IMG/VR virus record: IMGVR_UViG_3300044732_002445
Location: 1 to 22,621 of that record
Reading direction: 5' to 3' (one strand)
Length of the DNA stretch: 22,621 nt
Source: a virus
The position numbers were made by a program, and so were the translations under genes. The notes beneath the pieces were generated by a model. That model was not told the DNA's origin and searched no databases. It was given only the letters and a program-made list of their open reading frames with translations. Shown in pieces: positions 616 to 9,606 of the stretch (position 1 is its first letter; the number at the start of each line of letters is the position of its first letter).

Positions 616-969
616 TCACGCCCGGTTCCAGTGGTGCCCTGCGTCGAGCGGGACGCCCTGGGCATCTGCACCGCGCATGACGCCGGTCACGTCCTGGGAT
701 TGCTTGGCGCCGTCATGGCAGGACTTGCACAACGCCTGCCAGTTCGTCGAGTCCCAGAAGAGCCGGCGCGCGGCGGCGATCGCACGCTCGTTGCCCGACT
801 CGAGGGCCGCGCCCAGGCGGTGGGGCCGCCGATGGTCAACGACCGCGGCCAGGCTGAGACGCCCGACCTGCTCGCACATGGCGCAAGTGGGATGAGCCTG
901 GAGATACCCCAGCCTGGCCTTGGCCCAAGTCCTCCCGTACCCACGGCGATGTGCAGACAGCAACTTCAA
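616..969 (-). CDS. HNH endonuclease
   Basis: A 117-residue protein with a compact HNH (beta-beta-alpha metal) nuclease fold. The N-terminal helix region RRGYGRTWAKAR is typical of phage HNH proteins. The zinc-binding pairs are C29-x2-C32 and C81-x2-C84-H85, the catalytic DH is D45-H46 (VVDHRRPH), and the central Asn is N76 (STNWQALCKSCH). Family members nick or cut DNA and, in many phages, sit beside the terminase and assist packaging; no terminase is visible here. The frame is blocked by a TGA at 976-978, so the start must lie just inside it. TTG at 967-969 is the likeliest, with a second TTG at 961-963. An intrinsic terminator separates it from the primase gene upstream, so it probably has its own promoter, which I could not identify. 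Confidence 0.85.
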   Translation of the reverse strand: MKLLSAHRRGYGRTWAKARLGYLQAHPTCAMCEQVGRLSLAAVVDHRRPHRLGAALESGNERAIAAARRLFWDSTNWQALCKSCHDGAKQSQDVTGVMRGADAQGVPLDAGHHWNRA

Positions 970-1408: not shown

Positions 1409-3856
1409 CTAAGCCAGATCTGTAAAATTTTCCACGCTGCTCTGCTGCTCCTGCCCCTTGAGAATTTCTGCAACGAACTCGGAGTGGGTCGCTGATGACC
1501 AGCGCGTCGGGTTGCGCAGGATCCACGCACGGTGCAATTCTCCTTTCACCTTGACCGTACTTGTCCTCGCTCGCACCCCAACTTGCTGCGCCGCGGTCGA
1601 GATCCGGGTGAGCCGGTCGACTGGGATCTTCGCCACCAGGCTGATCTCCCGCTTCAGATCCAACGCCGTGATGCAGTCGCTGGGCCACGACTCGGCGATG
1701 TCAGCCATCGTCTGCGCGATCTCGGAGCGCCCTGCGTCGATCACGGCACGCTTGGCTGCGTTCAACTCCGCTATGCCACCCGGGTCGAAGCCTGAGATGT
1801 CCCGAGTGCGCAGGTACTCGATCACCGACCCCACGAAGAGCGGGCAGTCCAGCAGCCTGTAGATGGCCTGGTAGTACTCAGGCGGTCGCCTCTCCTCCGG
1901 GTTGCTGATCACGAACACGCGCCGATCGTTCTCGGCCAGCGGCAGTGCCGCATCGTGGTTCGAAAAAATCAGGAAGCGACACGCATTGAACTCAACGTGT
2001 TGCCTCCCGTATTTCGGATTCACCAGCCGGGTGCGTTCGGTCAGCATGGACTTGAGCTTCTCCCCGGATTTCGAGGCGTCGTTGGCCTCATTGATCTCGT
2101 CCACCACGGCCAGCACCTTCCGAGACAGCGCCCCGTTGAAGCCGGAGCGCAAGGCGCCCTCCAGGTCGAACCCCAAGGCCACATAGCCTGCCCAGATGCG
2201 TCCGCATATATAGGACAGCCAGTTGCGCCCGATACCCGTCTGGCGAGCCACCATCAGGTAGTGCGCCTGGGGGAGTTCACCCGGCCGTTGCTCGATGTGC
2301 GCCATCCAATCAAGGAGGCGCTCGCGCTCATGTTTGACCGGCGCGAGGTACTCGATGTGGTCGAGAAAGGGCTGGACCCGGGTCTGCCAATCCAGAGGAG
2401 GTCGGGGGCTATAGGGTCGCTGCTCGCGCGGCTGCCACAGATTCATGGCCGACGACCCTTCAGGTGACAGGCAGAACTCCGGCTGGCCCGGGGCGAAGGT
2501 CAGGGTGTAGGCCGTCATGCGGTTGGTCGATTTCAGCCACCGGTCCAGCCTGGGCACCTCTTTGACCGACTTGCCGCTGGGCACCGAGTCGATGCTGGCT
2601 GCGAAGTGGTTTCGCGCATCGCTCAGGGCCATCGACTGCTGGGGCGATCCGCGTTTCGCGATTCGCGAACCGTCGGAGATGAACACCAGGTCGCCGATCA
2701 TCTCCGGCGTGGTCATCACCTCCGGCATGGGCGAGATCGGGTCGAGGGTGCCATGCTCACCGATGATGGCCGCTTCGCGCTTGGCGCGCTCTTCCCGCGC
2801 TTCAGCATCAAGGTCGGGAAAGGCGTTGATGATCGCCGGATCGACCCAGCCGGCCGCCCGTGCCCTGGAGAAGACGAATTCGCCGGAGATGACCCGGCTC
2901 TTGCCGGCCGAGGCCGCGGAGGCCCAATTCCAGGCTTTGCGATCGAAGGTCTCGTCGTTGTGCTTTTCGCTCTTCGCAGACCACTCTCTGGCGATCTCGC
3001 GACCCTCTTCCGAGCCGCCGCAAGCCTCGTGAACCGCCAAGATCACGCGCAGCCACTGATCGTAGCCGAGGCCGTCGTCGTTGGGCAGCACCTCGAGCGC
3101 CTCGCGCAGCCGCCCGTGGATCGCCACCAGCTCCATGTCATCGAGCGCCGCTGCAGCGCGCCTCGCAACCCGCGCGCCATCATCGACTCCCCCGTCCGAA
3201 TGGCCGACCGTGGGCACCGGCAGTGACATCTTGAAGACGACATGCGCAAGGTCATCCGCGGTGCCCGCCGCCAGACCGCCGAGCAGGTCGTCGATGATCA
3301 GCGGCACCGACTCGTGCGCGCCGGGCACGATGAACATGCTGCCATAGGCGCCATCGGCGATCCGGTTTTGCTTGGGGAAAATCTCGACCTCGCCGTTTCG
3401 CACACCGCCCGTTCCGTTGCGCAGCCCGCGCGCTGCCAGAACCGCGGTCAGCGCCTCGCGAACGGCGAATGCGCTCTGGTCCTGCTCCCACAGGAAAATC
3501 GCGTGAACACCGCTGCCGCCGCGCGATCGGAAAAGGGTCGCTTCAAGGCCGACCAGGCTCGCCGTGTCGATCACCTGCTCGACGACGTTCAGCATGTCCT
3601 GCCACGATGTCTCACCAGCGTGAGCGTCAAAATCCAGCAGCGCGCACCGGGTCGTTGCGCTGCCGGGCACCATAGGTGCGACACCGACGGCGGGGCCTCC
3701 GGTCAGATGGTCTTCAAGTTTGGCCTGCGTCAGGGGCTCATCGATTCGAAACGGGCCGCGCCCAGGGCGCTTGATCCAGACCGTGTCGGTGCGAACGCGG
3801 TCGAGCAAAGGTTGGAGAGCCGCGATCTTCGCGGCGACAAGGGGGTGTGAAGGCAA
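1409..3856 (-). CDS. Primase-helicase (AEP primase domain, PriCT-like linker, DUF5906/SF3-like helicase)
   Basis: An 815-residue replication protein. The N-terminal archaeo-eukaryotic-type primase domain (about 1-210) shows the metal-binding LLDFDAH (D75, D77) and the SRGGSGVH motif ending at H118. A PriCT-like helical domain spans about 240-340 (DNDGLGYDQW region). The C-terminal helicase (about 500-690) carries VVDEINE (D586, E587) as Walker B and FSNHD as the sensor Asn. The Walker A position reads QTGIGRNW (539-546): Arg replaces the usual Lys. This architecture, common in phages and P4-like elements, primes and unwinds DNA at an origin. TTG at 3854-3856 is the start: GGAG lies seven bases upstream and an in-frame stop at 3887-3889 leaves no better codon. 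It follows the YdaS-like gene and is closed by the terminator at 1252-1292. Confidence 0.9.
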   Translation of the reverse strand: MPSHPLVAAKIAALQPLLDRVRTDTVWIKRPGRGPFRIDEPLTQAKLEDHLTGGPAVGVAPMVPGSATTRCALLDFDAHAGETSWQDMLNVVEQVIDTASLVGLEATLFRSRGGSGVHAIFLWEQDQSAFAVREALTAVLAARGLRNGTGGVRNGEVEIFPKQNRIADGAYGSMFIVPGAHESVPLIIDDLLGGLAAGTADDLAHVVFKMSLPVPTVGHSDGGVDDGARVARRAAAALDDMELVAIHGRLREALEVLPNDDGLGYDQWLRVILAVHEACGGSEEGREIAREWSAKSEKHNDETFDRKAWNWASAASAGKSRVISGEFVFSRARAAGWVDPAIINAFPDLDAEAREERAKREAAIIGEHGTLDPISPMPEVMTTPEMIGDLVFISDGSRIAKRGSPQQSMALSDARNHFAASIDSVPSGKSVKEVPRLDRWLKSTNRMTAYTLTFAPGQPEFCLSPEGSSAMNLWQPREQRPYSPRPPLDWQTRVQPFLDHIEYLAPVKHERERLLDWMAHIEQRPGELPQAHYLMVARQTGIGRNWLSYICGRIWAGYVALGFDLEGALRSGFNGALSRKVLAVVDEINEANDASKSGEKLKSMLTERTRLVNPKYGRQHVEFNACRFLIFSNHDAALPLAENDRRVFVISNPEERRPPEYYQAIYRLLDCPLFVGSVIEYLRTRDISGFDPGGIAELNAAKRAVIDAGRSEIAQTMADIAESWPSDCITALDLKREISLVAKIPVDRLTRISTAAQQVGVRARTSTVKVKGELHRAWILRNPTRWSSATHSEFVAEILKGQEQQSSVENFTDLA

Positions 3857-4876: not shown

Positions 4877-4930
4877 GACGGACATTGAAAGCATGGCAGG
4901 GCAGGGCATCGCATCGCATCGCATCGCATC

Positions 4931-4990
4931 GAAACGCGGTCAGGCTCTTGATTCGTCAGGGGTCTGATCGAGTTCTGATGGGACTCGAAA
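4931..4990 (+). ncRNA. Structured RNA core, copy 1
   Basis: As plus-strand RNA, core bases 7-21 pair without interruption with 26-40 (15 bp including four G-U pairs, loop UUCG). A second hairpin follows at once (41-46 with 50-55, loop GAU). On the minus strand the G-U pairs would become A-C mismatches, so the plus strand is the likely RNA. Transcription as a discrete RNA is unproven. Confidence 0.55.
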
Positions 4991-5040
4991 GCAAGGCACC
5001 GCATGGCAGCGCAGCGCAAGGCAACGCAGCGCAGCGCATC

Positions 5041-5100
5041 GAAACGCGGTCAGGCTCTTGATTCGTCAGGGGTCTGATCGAGTTCTGATGGGACTCGAAA
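5041..5100 (+). ncRNA. Structured RNA core, copy 2
   Basis: Identical in sequence to copy 1, 110 bp downstream, with the same predicted 15-bp hairpin and adjacent small hairpin. Confidence 0.55.
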
Positions 5101-5150
5101 GCAGGGCAAGGCGCGGCATCGCAAAGCAGCGCAAGGCAGTGCAAGGCATC

Positions 5151-5210
5151 GAAACGCGGTCAGCGGCTTGGAGATCCAGGCTGTTGATCGAGTTCTGATG
5201 GGACTCGAAA
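5151..5210 (+). ncRNA. Structured RNA core, copy 3 with compensatory changes
   Basis: The interior of the stem differs from copies 1 and 2, yet all 15 pairs remain. Core pair 13-34 goes from G-C to G-U, 14-33 from G-U to C-G, 15-32 from C-G to G-U, 16-31 from U-G to G-C, and 21-26 from A-U to G-C. The loop changes from UUCG to AGAU. The second hairpin is unchanged. Confidence 0.6.
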
Positions 5211-5255
5211 GCATGGCAACGCATCGCACCGCAGGGCAGTGCAACGCAGGGCATC

Positions 5256-5352
5256 GAAAAGCAACGCGGGCTGCACACTCTCAGAGCGGGCATCCCGAGT
5301 CGCTTTGACTCATAACCATATGGCAGGAAACCCTGCCGAAAGGAAATCAATC
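5256..5352 (+). promoter_or_regulatory. Structured leader of the 5353 gene
   Basis: Between array 1 and the gene lie three small hairpins: CGGG-CAT-CCCG (5287-5297), GAGTC-GCTTT-GACTC (5297-5311) and GGCAGG-AAAC-CCTGCC (5322-5337). The last is directly followed by the AAAGGAAA ribosome binding site. No promoter was recognised. Confidence 0.5.
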
Positions 5353-5949
5353 ATGGCAATGCAGACCGCAACTCTCACCGCATCCGGCATCGGCGGACTT
5401 CTTTTGAACAATCCTCAATGCGTCGATCGCTTCAACAGCTTCGCTCGCCGCATGAAGGCGATCAACGACAAGAAGACCCGTCGCACCGACGACGATTACC
5501 TGGAACTGCGTGATCTGGAGGTCGCATCGAAGTTGTACTTTGACGATGCGACCGGAGGTGTGTACGTCCCTGGCACATGGGTGATCGAGTCGATTGCCGG
5601 CTCTGCGTTCGGGGTCGCCAAGCTGTCGCGGGACAAGACCCGTGGGTCGCTTTTCGTGCAGACGATGAAGATTCCGCTCAAGTATGCCGGCATGGAGCTT
5701 GTGAAGGCCCCGGCGGACATCATCAAGAACCCGAAGTTCGTCCACACGATGGCGCTGCCGCAGGGCCAGGTGCGCGTGGTCAAATGCTTCCCGATTTTCC
5801 ACAACTGGTCGTTCGAAGTGAACGTCGAGTTCGACGACTCAATCATGGATCTCGGGATGCTGGTGCGCATCGGTGAGTACGCCGGCAAGTACGTCGGCTA
5901 CGGCGACCTGCGCCCGACGTTCGGCCGCGCCAAGGTCGAGGTGAAGTGA
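5353..5949 (+). CDS. Conserved phage protein of unknown function
   Basis: A 198-residue protein. The overall pattern resembles a widespread phage family of unknown function with a similar layout: early LNNPQ.VDRFN, then DDDYLELRDLE, the beta-strand YVPGTWVIESI, and a C-terminal GEYAGKYVGYGDLRPTFGRAKVEV matching the family's GLGDWRPRFGRF-type ending. No catalytic motif is visible. The start is the ATG at 5353, which has a clear AAGGAAA just upstream; the longer frame back to 5239 runs into repeat DNA. Its stop overlaps the next start (TGATG). It is flanked on both sides by composite repeat arrays, so this two-gene block may be a cassette bounded by repeats. Confidence 0.75.
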   Translation: MAMQTATLTASGIGGLLLNNPQCVDRFNSFARRMKAINDKKTRRTDDDYLELRDLEVASKLYFDDATGGVYVPGTWVIESIAGSAFGVAKLSRDKTRGSLFVQTMKIPLKYAGMELVKAPADIIKNPKFVHTMALPQGQVRVVKCFPIFHNWSFEVNVEFDDSIMDLGMLVRIGEYAGKYVGYGDLRPTFGRAKVEVK

Positions 5950-6395
5950 TGAGCGAGCGCAAAGAGCGGTTCAAGGATTTCTACGCCGAGCTTGATGCCC
6001 GTGGTCTGCTTGAGTACGGGTCGGTGATCGAGTCGAGTCTTGTGCAGGCGCTGCTGGACATCGTGGTGCCGAAGGTCGGCACCAAGGCCCAGTTCGACCG
6101 CGCATCACTGATGGAGTTGGGCGCCGTCGACTACGTTCGTGGGCTGCTGATCAAGCAGGGCCGATACCTGGCCGGTACGCCCGGCGGTTACCGCATCCTG
6201 CTGCCCAGCGAGAACGCCGACCAGGTGGCCGTCTACATCAACGCTGCGCAGCGTAAGCTGGCGAGGGCGTCGATGCTGAACCGCACCACGCCCGCCGAGC
6301 ACCGCGAGCGTGATGATCAGGTCGAGGCGCGGATCGAGTTGGCGCGCAGCGGTGCCGAGTCGCGGTTCCAGCCTGGAGGTAACCGAAGGCAGTGA
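5949..6395 (+). CDS. Conserved phage protein of unknown function
   Basis: A 148-residue, mostly helical protein whose start overlaps the preceding stop by one base, so the two are likely co-translated. The segment VDYVRGLLIKQGRYLAGTPG followed by GYRILLPSENADQV and AQRKLARA resembles phage proteins usually found beside the preceding family. The YLAGTPGGYRI part could be the wing of a winged helix, but this is a guess. A polar, Arg/Glu-rich tail follows. The stop lies 13 bases before composite array 2. Confidence 0.7.
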   Translation: MSERKERFKDFYAELDARGLLEYGSVIESSLVQALLDIVVPKVGTKAQFDRASLMELGAVDYVRGLLIKQGRYLAGTPGGYRILLPSENADQVAVYINAAQRKLARASMLNRTTPAEHRERDDQVEARIELARSGAESRFQPGGNRRQ

Positions 6396-6428
6396 GCCGC
6401 ATTGCTGGGCAATGCAAGGCATCGCATT

Positions 6429-6488
6429 GAAACGCGGTCAGGCTCTTGATTCGTCAGGGGTCTGATCGAGTTCTGATGGGACTCGAAA
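6429..6488 (+). ncRNA. Structured RNA core, copy 4
   Basis: Identical to copies 1 and 2 although 1.3 kb away, with the same predicted pair of hairpins. Confidence 0.55.
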
Positions 6489-6543
6489 GCAGGGCATTGC
6501 AATGCATCGCAAGGCACCGCAACGCATCGCAGGGCAAGGCATC

Positions 6544-6592
6544 GAAACGCGGTCAGGCTCTTGATTCGTCAGGGGTCTGATCGAGTTCCGAT
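6544..6592 (+). ncRNA. Structured RNA core, copy 5, truncated
   Basis: The first 45 bases match the core exactly, so the 15-bp hairpin (6550-6583) is intact. The 3' arm of the small second hairpin is missing. Confidence 0.5.
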
Positions 6593-6622
6593 ACACCGAC
6601 AACCGAGAACCAAAGGCACCAG

Positions 6623-7342
6623 GTGATTCACTATCACGGTCTACCAATCACCCCGAGTACCGCCGCCGTGGCGGCGATAAATACGGGGCATGCGTTCGTG
6701 TCGTTCAAGCACAGGGATCAGCTGACCACGGCCGCAGAATGCTGCCAGTCGTTCGCCATCGACAACGGTGCGTTCTCCGCGTGGCGCTCCGGCGACCCGA
6801 TCACAGACTGGTCGGAATTTTACGAATGGGCCGAGAAGTGCCGGCGGATCCCGTCGTGCGACTTCGCCGTGATCCCGGACATCATCGACGGCAGTGAGCA
6901 GGACAACGACGCGCTGCTTCTGGACTGCCCATTGCCGCGCTGGTTCAGCGCGCCCGTGTGGCACATGCACGAGAGCCTGACGCGGCTGGAGTGGCTGATC
7001 GATGAGTACCCGAGGATCTGCCTGGGCAGTTCCGGGGAGTACGCCAAGGTCGGCGACGAGAAGTGGTGGGTGCGAATCGCCGAGGCGATGTCGGTCATCT
7101 GCGATGAACAAGGCGCGCCTAAGTGCAAGATCCACGGCCTGCGCATGCTCAACCCGAAGGTGTTCACGAAGATACCGTTCGCCAGTGCCGACAGCACGAA
7201 CATCGGTCGCAACGTGGGCATCGACAAGAAGTGGGTGAACGGGAACTACCTGCCACCGACGAAAGAAGCCCGGGCGCAGGTGATGCGCAGCCGGATCGAA
7301 GCCTACAACGCACCTCTCACTTTCAAACTGGACAGACCATGA
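6623..7342 (+). CDS. DpdA-like tRNA-guanine transglycosylase-fold protein (deazaguanine base exchange)
   Basis: A 239-residue protein with the landmarks of the TGT/DpdA superfamily. It has SFAIDNGAFSAW (D47), CDFAVIPDIID (D86), ICLGSSGEY (132-140), KIHGLRML (169-176) and FASADSTNIGRN (D190). In TGT enzymes Asp residues at corresponding positions bind and attack the base. Family members replace guanine with a 7-deazaguanine; phage and bacterial DpdA proteins do this in DNA. At about 240 residues it fits the short phage DpdA types rather than the larger bacterial tRNA enzyme. GTG at 6623 starts the gene, behind AAAGG. Its stop overlaps the YhhQ-like transporter gene (ATGA), which supports a deazaguanine role. 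Whether the substrate is phage DNA or tRNA is inferred. Confidence 0.75.
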   Translation: MIHYHGLPITPSTAAVAAINTGHAFVSFKHRDQLTTAAECCQSFAIDNGAFSAWRSGDPITDWSEFYEWAEKCRRIPSCDFAVIPDIIDGSEQDNDALLLDCPLPRWFSAPVWHMHESLTRLEWLIDEYPRICLGSSGEYAKVGDEKWWVRIAEAMSVICDEQGAPKCKIHGLRMLNPKVFTKIPFASADSTNIGRNVGIDKKWVNGNYLPPTKEARAQVMRSRIEAYNAPLTFKLDRP

Positions 7343-7821
7343 ACCTTGGCATTGCAATCTGTGTGTACTCCGTCGCCATGACGCTCGCCAATCTGAGCGT
7401 GTCGATGTTCGGCCCCGCCGTGTCGCCGATCAACTCTTTCCTCTTCATCGGTCTGGATCTGGCGCTGCGTGACTGGCTGCATGTCAGACTCAAGGCATGG
7501 CAGATGGGACTGCTGATCGCGTCCTCCGGGGTGCTGACCTACGTCTTGAACCCAGCGGCAGGCAAGATCGCTGTGGCTTCCGCCTGCGCCTTCACGGCTG
7601 CAGCCGTCGTCGATTGGTCGGTGTTTTCCAGACTGACTGGAACCTGGAAATTCCGCGCCAACGGATCGAACGTGGCCGGTGCGGCTGTCGACTCCTTCGT
7701 CTTCCCCTACATCGCGTTCGGCGCGCTCATGCCGCACATCGTTGCCATGCAGTTCGCAGCCAAGGTCGCAGGCGGCCTGGTGTGGACTTCGATCCTGTCC
7801 AGATACGCTGGAGAGAAGTGA
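7339..7821 (+). CDS. VUT/YhhQ-family queuosine-precursor transporter
   Basis: A 160-residue inner-membrane protein with about four or five hydrophobic segments (2-22, 30-42, 55-72, 76-92, 112-150). It carries the family motifs SPINSFLFIGLDLALRD (29-45) and RANGSNVAGAAVDSFVFP (106-123). YhhQ in E. coli imports the queuosine precursors preQ0 and preQ1; the phage version is shorter than the E. coli one. It is coupled to the dpdA-like gene before it and to the PP-loop gene after it (ATGA at both ends). The simplest reading is that it supplies precursor for base exchange, since no preQ0 synthesis genes (folE, queD, queE) are visible in the window. Confidence 0.8.
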   Translation: MNLGIAICVYSVAMTLANLSVSMFGPAVSPINSFLFIGLDLALRDWLHVRLKAWQMGLLIASSGVLTYVLNPAAGKIAVASACAFTAAAVVDWSVFSRLTGTWKFRANGSNVAGAAVDSFVFPYIAFGALMPHIVAMQFAAKVAGGLVWTSILSRYAGEK

Positions 7822-8558
7822 TGACCGCGAGCAAAAGAGTGGTGTCCTGGTTCTCGTGCGGGGCCGCCAGTGCGGTGGCAACGCTGCTGGCAGCCGAAAA
7901 GTACGGCCAGATTGAAGCGGTCTACTGCCGCGTCGTTGAAGAGCACGAAGACAATCTGCGCTTCCTTGATGACTTCGTGCGAGTCACGGGAATCCCGGTT
8001 AAGACCATCGTCGATGAACCGCACCAAGGTTCGATCTTCAGGGTCTTTCTCAGGAGAGGTTTCATCAAGAATCAGTACGGCGCGCCTTGCACGATGATTC
8101 TGAAAAAGGACATGCGCAAGTCGTATCAACGCCCCGGAGACATCCAGGTGTTCGGCTACACCGCGGAAGAGCAAGACCGCGCGGATCGATTCATGGATGG
8201 CAACAACGATGTGCGGGAAGACTTCATCCTGCTCGACAAAGGCATCACCAAGAAGGAGTGCTACGCGCACCTGACCCGCCTCGGAATTGAACTGCCCGCC
8301 ATGTACAGACTCGGCTACAGCAACAACAACTGCGTCGGGTGCGTGAAGGGTGGGATGGGGTACTGGAACAAGATCCGCCGGGATTTTCCAGACCGTTTCA
8401 ACAAGATGGCGGAGCTTGAGCGCACCATCGGACACGCCGTGAACAAAGACAAGAACGGTCCCGTGTATCTTGATCAACTCTCCCCGAAGCGTGGGTACAA
8501 AAACAAAGACATGCCCGCCGACTGCGGGTTCACCTGCGAAGTGAAAGAGACACCATGA
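7821..8558 (+). CDS. PP-loop / PAPS-reductase-like ATPase
   Basis: A 245-residue protein of the adenine nucleotide alpha-hydrolase-like superfamily. The PP-loop reads SCGAASA (12-18), so the usual SGG is altered. Cysteines form a C171-x2-C174 pair (NNNCVGC) and a C235-x3-C239 pair (CGFTC), a likely metal or iron-sulphur site. Relatives in phages are annotated as phosphoadenosine phosphosulfate reductase family proteins and their reaction is unknown. The superfamily also includes QueC and DndC, so an adenylating or sulphur-inserting step is possible. Its start overlaps the transporter's stop, tying it to the deazaguanine cassette. Confidence 0.75.
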   Translation: MTASKRVVSWFSCGAASAVATLLAAEKYGQIEAVYCRVVEEHEDNLRFLDDFVRVTGIPVKTIVDEPHQGSIFRVFLRRGFIKNQYGAPCTMILKKDMRKSYQRPGDIQVFGYTAEEQDRADRFMDGNNDVREDFILLDKGITKKECYAHLTRLGIELPAMYRLGYSNNNCVGCVKGGMGYWNKIRRDFPDRFNKMAELERTIGHAVNKDKNGPVYLDQLSPKRGYKNKDMPADCGFTCEVKETP

Positions 8559-8694: not shown

Positions 8695-8709
8695 TGACAA
8701 GGATCTGTG

Positions 8710-9606
8710 ATGACCAAACCAAAATTGAACGTTAGTTTTTCTGGCGGCAGAACTAGCGCATACATGACCAAGCTCATCTTGGACAACTGGTCAGACAGGT
8801 ACGAAATGCTCGTTGTGTTTGCCAATACGGGTCTTGAGCACCCGAAGACACTTGAATTTGTCCACAACTGCGACCAGCAGTTTGGGTTCAACACCGTGTG
8901 GGTGGAAGGCGTTGTTCACCGTGGTGAACGCAAAGCGAGCACACACAAGGTAGTCACCTTCGAAACAGCGTCTCGCAAAGGTGAGCCGTTTGAGGCGTGC
9001 ATAGAGAAGTACGGCATCCCCAACTCGGCGTTTCCGCAATGCACAAGGGAGCTGAAGTTGTACCCAATCCGGTCGTACCTGCGGTCGTTGGGGATCAACT
9101 ACAGACACATACCTACCGCGATCGGCATACGCAATGACGAGAAACGCAGGGTGTCCAAATCCGCGGATGTCGACAGCATCATCTACCCTTTGGTAACCGA
9201 TTGGCCTACCGACAAGCAGGACGTTCTGGATTGGTGGGAAGATCAGCCGTTCAACCTAGAGATTGATGAATTCGAAGGCAACTGCCTAGGGTGTTACAAA
9301 AAGTCGCTCAAGAAGCATTTCATGCAGATTGAAAGGGACCCGTCCGTGTACGATTTTCACCGACGCATGGAAGACCAGTGGAGATCTTTCGGCCCGCAAA
9401 AAGGGGACAGGGTTTTCTTCAGAGGAAACACCGACACCCGCAAGCTCTTCAAGCTGTACGAAGAGTACGGACACGATCCTCGCAGGGCAAACGAAATGGC
9501 CTACGAGAACGGCGGATGCTCTGAATCATGCGAGATCTATGAAACCGAGGAAGCATCCGGGGTGCGGCGGGCAGCGGTCCAGAAGTACCGCGCCCGCGAG
9601 GTGTGA
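8710..9606 (+). CDS. PP-loop / PAPS-reductase-like ATPase, second copy type
   Basis: A 298-residue protein with a canonical PP-loop SFSGGRTSAYM (9-19), the FANTGLEHPKTL strand-loop (38-49), PQCTRELK (109-116), C192-x2-C195 (NCLGC) and C270-x3-C274 (CSESC). This family is common in phages and its reaction is unresolved. The CxxC plus CxxxC layout is shared with the first PP-loop protein, although the sequences differ. AAGGA precedes the ATG at 8710. The gene is noticeably more AT-rich than its neighbours in its first third and uses codons such as TTT and AGA, suggesting separate acquisition. It ends only five bases before the converging gene at 9612. Confidence 0.8.
   Translation: MTKPKLNVSFSGGRTSAYMTKLILDNWSDRYEMLVVFANTGLEHPKTLEFVHNCDQQFGFNTVWVEGVVHRGERKASTHKVVTFETASRKGEPFEACIEKYGIPNSAFPQCTRELKLYPIRSYLRSLGINYRHIPTAIGIRNDEKRRVSKSADVDSIIYPLVTDWPTDKQDVLDWWEDQPFNLEIDEFEGNCLGCYKKSLKKHFMQIERDPSVYDFHRRMEDQWRSFGPQKGDRVFFRGNTDTRKLFKLYEEYGHDPRRANEMAYENGGCSESCEIYETEEASGVRRAAVQKYRAREV

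Follow-up and report, generated by a model that had tools for sequence, protein, structure and literature searches.

A probable VIPR locus with GCA-phased guide RNAs in an environmental tailed phage

Positions 4891-6603 of the IMG/VR virus record IMGVR_UViG_3300044732_002445 very probably constitute a VIPR locus of a tailed phage, which comprises a Vipr protein, a Vap protein, and six guide RNAs and would silence competing DNA. The stretch analyzed as a whole, positions 1 to 22,621 of the record (22,621 nt), is referred to as the window. VIPR (Viral Interference Programmable Repeat) systems, first described in a 2026 preprint, consist according to its main text of the RAMP protein Vipr, the accessory protein Vap, and guide RNAs termed vrRNAs (PMC13142463). 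The assignment is carried by the protein family and predicted fold of Vipr, the gene pair, the fixed triplet with its hypervariable dinucleotides, and a covarying tail including a pseudoknot, all of which are established here. With it, an environmental phage joins a recently described class of RNA-guided systems that has been proposed to predate CRISPR.

By analogy with the systems of SUSP1 and P. fulva, on which transcription, binding, and repression are modeled throughout, vrRNAs would be transcribed from the locus, Vipr subunits would coat the pentamer tract, and the tail would cap the resulting Vipr-guide complex. As in the published systems, the variable dinucleotides would then pair with double-stranded DNA, with one base skipped per dinucleotide, and DNA recognition would block transcription of a competing phage or satellite.

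Genes and guide RNAs of the locus

The vipr gene (5353-5949, plus strand) encodes a RAMP (Cas7-like) protein of 198 aa belonging to phrog_4652. The VIPR name came from a search against solved structures, in which this protein matched 36pp_D, "SUSP1 Vipr protein", with E=8e-18. A profile of 24 Viprs aligns with 36pp_D over the full length (E=3e-36), and hhalign of the window Vipr against SUSP1 Vipr yields 99.9% (E=9e-31). Moreover, the AlphaFold model of the window protein (pLDDT 93) resembles Csm3/Cas7 subunits, with a Foldseek probability of 1.0 (E about 1e-4) and VIA Z scores of 10-11 over about 134-160 residues. Judged by homology and predicted fold, the product of this gene is Vipr, a small protein with a RAMP/RRM core. 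The following gene, vap (vipr-accessory gene; 5949-6395, plus strand, 148 aa), is similar to the SUSP1 gene beside vipr (hhalign 93.6%, E=2e-7), and vap homologs adjoin vipr in most related loci. Comparison of the Vap fold with the PDB gave no significant match, the weak ones being winged-helix-like regulators. Neither Vipr nor Vap is represented in Pfam, NCBIfam, or PADLOC.

Both sides of the vipr-vap pair are occupied by vrRNA units, six in total and all on the plus strand, in a region of direct 110-bp repeats. Each unit spans ~100-110 nt and is composed of a 5' tract of GCANN pentamers and a 60-nt 3' tail. The tracts hold 8, 10, 10, 9, 8, and 11 pentamers, compared with 9-16 in published vrRNAs. 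In vrRNA1 (tract 4891-4930, tail 4931-4990), the last of the 8 pentamers joins the tail pseudoknot and NN is mostly TC, which results in low information. The tract of vrRNA2 (4991-5040, tail 5041-5100) reads AG CC TG GC GC AG AC GC GC [TC]; that of vrRNA3 (5101-5150, tail 5151-5210), in which one triplet is GCG, reads GG AG CG TC AA GC AG GT AG [TC]; and that of vrRNA4 (5211-5255, tail 5256-5315) reads TG AC TC CC GG GT AC GG TC. Downstream, vrRNA5 (tract 6389-6428, tail 6429-6488) overlaps the 3' end of vap and contains two imperfect triplets (GAG, GCT) among its 8 pentamers, and vrRNA6 (tract 6489-6543, tail 6544-6603) reads GG TT AT TC AG CC AC TC GG AG [TC].

Between the copies, the GCA positions share 94% pairwise identity, whereas NN shares 26%, which is about chance level; the entropies of the five pentamer columns are 0, 0.14, 0.38, 1.89, and 1.56 bits. 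Exchange of guides on an unchanging scaffold would be expected to leave such a pattern, with a near-constant triplet and identical tails (copies 1, 2, and 5) around hypervariable dinucleotides. Pentanucleotide repeats of phages yielded nothing in a literature search, and a sigma-70-type promoter sought beside the arrays in the window was not found.

This architecture closely follows that of Escherichia phage SUSP1 (VIPR type II; PDB 36pp), which makes four ~100-nt vrRNAs around vipr-vap (PMC13142463). Both loci combine a Vipr homolog with a neighboring vap homolog, vrRNAs flanking the two genes on either side, and ~100-nt units in which a pentamer tract precedes a folded 3' tail containing a pseudoknot. 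The published vrRNA is described as 9-16 pentamers of a fixed GGY triplet and a hypervariable NN, followed by a structured, pseudoknotted 3' tail (PMC13142463). In contrast, the window triplet is GCA, the window Vipr falls into a separate clade (27 rows, support 100/98), and a model of the window's tails detects no such tail sequence in SUSP1. Because of its GCA triplet and its Vipr outside the SUSP1 clade, we do not file the window as VIPR type II (SUSP1 / P. fulva clade). With class 1 CRISPR-Cas effectors (type III Csm3, type VII Cas7), the locus shares the backbone-subunit fold and a guide RNA with a fixed end. Unlike these systems, the window has no array of unique contiguous spacers, its tracts being GCA-phased, and VIPR guides are described as being read in dinucleotides rather than contiguously (PMC13142463). 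No cas1 or cas2 was seen among the scanned window proteins, and PADLOC returned nothing for the three locus proteins.

Not every unit appears equally preserved. The dinucleotides of vrRNA1 are mostly TC, the tract of vrRNA5 is short and imperfect, and the tail of vrRNA6 lacks its second hairpin, so that these three may be decaying; the vrRNA6 tail is possibly decayed already. This pattern, together with the three guides (v2, v4, v6) that were scanned and found no target, would fit a locus that is VIPR by descent and non-functional today, its guides being relics of which the structure alone persists. Such a locus would still be VIPR in identity, and the explanation competes with ours on function. 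We consider it rather improbable, since vipr and vap are both intact and close to those of the related locus L019 (84% and 66% identity), and vrRNA2-4 look complete.

Beside the VIPR locus lie a queuine tRNA-ribosyltransferase-like gene (phrog_887) and two PAPS-reductase-like genes (6623-7342, 7803-8558, and 8707-9606). The phrog_887 gene possibly serves 7-deazaguanine DNA modification, and the three genes perhaps provide further anti-defense functions. Three short tandem arrays at the far end of the contig (1-110, 12-mer x9.2; 239-359, 13-mer x9.3; 1308-1407, 17-mer x5.9) are possible origin or regulatory repeats.

Structure of the vrRNA tails

The tails were the starting point of the work: a first-pass annotation had described a 60-nt repeat core folding into a 15-bp RNA hairpin with covariation between copies. 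All five of its cores are present, starting at 4931, 5041, 5151, 6429, and 6544, and in hairpin 1 bases 7-21 pair with 26-40 without a break (15 pairs including four G-U, closed by a UUCG loop). In vrRNA1, hairpin 1 is formed by 4937-4951/4956-4970 and hairpin 2 by 4970-4976/4980-4986, and the tail scores 62.6 bits with covariance model R1. Tails 1, 2, and 5 are identical at 60/60 nt. Tail 3 represents a compensatory variant that keeps all 15 pairs of hairpin 1, with 13-34 changed on one side and 14-33, 15-32, 16-31, and 21-26 on both. The assignment to the plus strand likewise holds: RNAfold z-scores are -4.2 and -4.9 on this strand versus 0.1 and -0.5 on the minus strand, and the plus-strand cores have minimum free energies of -27.5 and -30.1 kcal/mol, with 0/200 shuffles as stable. 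The second hairpin, said to follow the first immediately, is predicted by RNAfold as 7 bp (40-46/50-56), but this part of the description fails for the copy at 6544, in which hairpin 1 is intact and hairpin 2 lost (R1 46.8 bits).

Three features had been absent from that description. A sixth, divergent core lies at 5256-5315, just before the gene at 5353; its R1 score of 56.4 bits is that of one of the 35 training rows of the model. Further, a GCANN pentamer tract precedes every core, and the last pentamer of the tract is able to base-pair with the hairpin 2 loop. In the window, this pseudoknot joins CATC(G) of that pentamer to (T)GATG in the loop (in vrRNA1, 4927-4931 with 4976-4980, plus strand). 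In vrRNA5, where the last pentamer is GCATT, it is kept via U-G, while the corresponding pairing in tail 4 is between AAAGC and GCTTT, the loop of the hairpin GAGTC-GCTTT-GACTC. In five of the six units, the last pentamer therefore counts as tail sequence. In these five it reads GCATC or GCATT, a constancy that this role would account for.

Homologous tails support a selected plus-strand RNA structure by both pairing and covariation. The alignment, made with MAFFT and hence blind to structure, comprises 35 tails drawn from 13 loci. Standard pairs make up 88.8% of the pair cells versus 69.4% in shuffled alignments, changes on both sides occur at 19 of the 23 pairs, and the covariation score is 0.526 versus 0.183; none of 500 shuffles reaches any of these three values, although the hairpin figures are inflated, given a finder that required hairpins, a few tails picked out by eye, and relatedness among many rows. 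When the pairing partners are shifted by one column, pairing drops to 47-49%, and stem changes that break pairing are not the pattern among the homologs. The pseudoknot, which played no part in tail selection, is paired at 92.6% (alignment columns 6-10 with 53-57) and shows both-side changes at four of its five pairs (AU/UA, AU/CG, GU/UA, CG/AU). Moreover, RNAalifold picks hairpin 1 and the pseudoknot helix unprompted. The part of the guide RNA that would cap the complex thus has a testable secondary structure with a covariation-backed pseudoknot.

Searching ~1.5 Mb with the covariance model returned 55 tails, about 16 of them outside the training set. Fifty-two lie in loci with a vipr gene; two of the remaining three are in a contig cut off beside vap, and one is in a 12.5-kb contig without vipr. 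In the window, the model finds no tails apart from the VIPR locus.

The core had been taken for a phage RNA family without a described counterpart. Searches by sequence returned little: Rfam found no family above its curated gathering threshold in the window, a BLAST search of phages with the repeat region produced one short, weak match, and the exact 17-mer of hairpin 2 had zero matches in viral contigs. The claim of novelty nevertheless fails, because the structure is the tail of a VIPR guide RNA, a kind published in 2026 (PMC13142463); the hairpin core is half of a functional unit and not a free-standing RNA family.

Two abutting sense-strand hairpins between genes could also act in cis on the surrounding transcript, as a put-like antiterminator, an attenuator, or an mRNA stabilizer with no guide role. 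The put antiterminator RNA of HK022 consists of two neighboring stem-loops in the phage transcript, as does the window core, a likeness drawn from description; to our knowledge, put has neither a pentamer tract nor a partner protein gene. Some homologs end as T-rich hairpins ahead of a start codon, which would suit a cis-acting element. Such an element leaves unexplained the strict 5-nt GCA period, NN identity at chance level, the identical tails, the constant vipr neighbor, and the Cas7-like fold of that neighbor, and we regard it as very unlikely. Least probable of all are repeats acting at the DNA level, as replication or recombination sites or as mobile hairpin elements spreading in tandem: the direct 110-bp repeats and the identity of tails 1, 2, and 5 indicate that units do duplicate, but stability and compensatory G-U pairs are confined to the plus strand and the covariance-model matches sit at vipr genes rather than being scattered.

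Related loci and the GCA triplet

Scanning 2.9 million viral contigs for (GCANN)8, using DNA only and no protein information, identified at least 120 stretches, many of them simple repeats. Among the matches listed, 49 loci carry varied (non-simple) arrays, often with two abutting hairpins, and the fetched DNA of 34 of these 49 contains a homolog of the window Vipr. According to rough ORF calling, the arrangement seen most often has arrays between two genes, all on the same strand. The many GCA/NN arrays in viral contigs suggest that, beyond the SUSP1 type, many more such systems exist.

In a tree of 50 Viprs, the window protein belongs to a clade of 27 (support 100/98), in which the array triplet is GCA in 26 and degenerate in one (L124), proportions that are biased because most loci were found by the GCA pattern. 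The other group, comprising SUSP1, Felix-type, Pseudomonas LESphi2, and actinophage Viprs, has GGC, GGT, or GGY, apart from L009, which has GCA. GCA also occurs on further branches of the tree and CGC on one. The main text of the preprint names GGY or "a related consensus" that it leaves unspecified there (PMC13142463), and GCA may already be covered by the latter. By sequence comparison, the GCA triplet marks a well-supported Vipr clade and is distinct from the published GGY. We tentatively propose, as a possibility that we rate below even, that the GCA/NN loci make up a widespread VIPR clade of their own, set apart from the characterized GGY systems by its triplet code, its tail with a pseudoknot, and perhaps its rule of reading, with the triplet as a lineage-specific code matched to its own Vipr. 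The match between GCA and a Vipr clade opens a direct experimental route to how Vipr reads its guide.

We identified GCA/NN VIPR loci in two named phages, Listonella phage phiHSIC and Vibrio phage 1.266.O, where the proteins are annotated as hypothetical. Like the window, both have the GCA triplet, a Vipr of the same clade (46-48% identity), a vap-like gene downstream, and vrRNA arrays around the genes. In contrast, their tails differ in sequence and escape the window-tail model, and their guides are unrelated. In phiHSIC, an opposite-strand gene is annotated between vipr and vap.

Several relatives depart from this layout. In L062, L104, and L013, GCA/NN tracts beside divergent Viprs are joined by very short linkers (e.g., CCATCGCCA or GGCAGGA) instead of hairpin tails, and are perhaps the staggered arrays named in the preprint. 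The 12.5-kb viral contig without vipr (L107) carries a lone vrRNA of the window type (tail 892-955, minus strand) with an apparent sigma-70 promoter upstream (TTGACA, about 17 nt, TAATAT); it is perhaps a satellite or phage borrowing a partner's Vipr, or a fragment.

Actinophage Vipr loci have GGC/NN tracts followed by tRNA-like tails, located near 2772, 2907, 4228, and 4371 in Mycobacterium phage LittleE (L132), near 2897 in prophiBWHA-1 (L130), and at 3777-3845 in Gordonia phage Trine (L131). In these tails, an acceptor-like stem encloses a second stem that carries the T-arm motif GTTCGA(N)YC and varies in sequence from copy to copy. ARAGORN calls one of them, in Trine, tRNA-???, and Rfam returned no tRNA match. 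Actinophage VIPR loci may thus use tRNA-processing enzymes.

Guide reading and target searches

In the preprint, the NN dinucleotides specify DNA with one base skipped between them (PMC13142463). Decoded by this rule, three of the six window guides (v2, v4, v6) gave no matches above chance in the collections scanned, namely viral contigs for all three and one genome collection for v6. For v2, 11 viral matches fall into about 8 distinct places in unrelated genes, and 1 of the 11 agrees at the tenth dinucleotide, roughly as expected by chance. For v4, 8 matches all represent one site, which we take, judging by eye, to be in replication gene P of enterobacterial phages, and the skip lies off the wobble position. 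For v6, viral contigs contained no match; the genomes contained 9, most of them within a single conserved gene of haloarchaea, and none agreed at the tenth dinucleotide. From Vibrio phage 1.266.O, two guides each had a single match among viral contigs. One of these (L145) runs on into the adjoining AA dinucleotide, with the first unit matched incompletely and no recognizable gene at the site; the second shows no extension. We rejected all of these candidates. A local search with all guides over ~2.4 Mb on both strands likewise showed no excess over chance at skips of 0-2, and at a skip of 3 found mostly the arrays themselves.

One guide of 1.266.O (L127, 3742-3801), read with a 1-nt skip in the wobble frame, spells [SR]-R-[DE]-G-[NK]-G-[NK]-S-T-[SR]. 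As an anecdotal case, one of many guides read, it fits the Walker A motif and may aim at an ATPase gene.

Codon phase was compared across 854 dinucleotides from 31 loci. A model placing NN at codon positions 1-2, on either strand, beats positions 2-3 in 99% and positions 3-1 in 100% of bootstraps, while it beats a phase-free mixture in only 78%. This agrees with, and does not prove, a skipped base at the wobble position.
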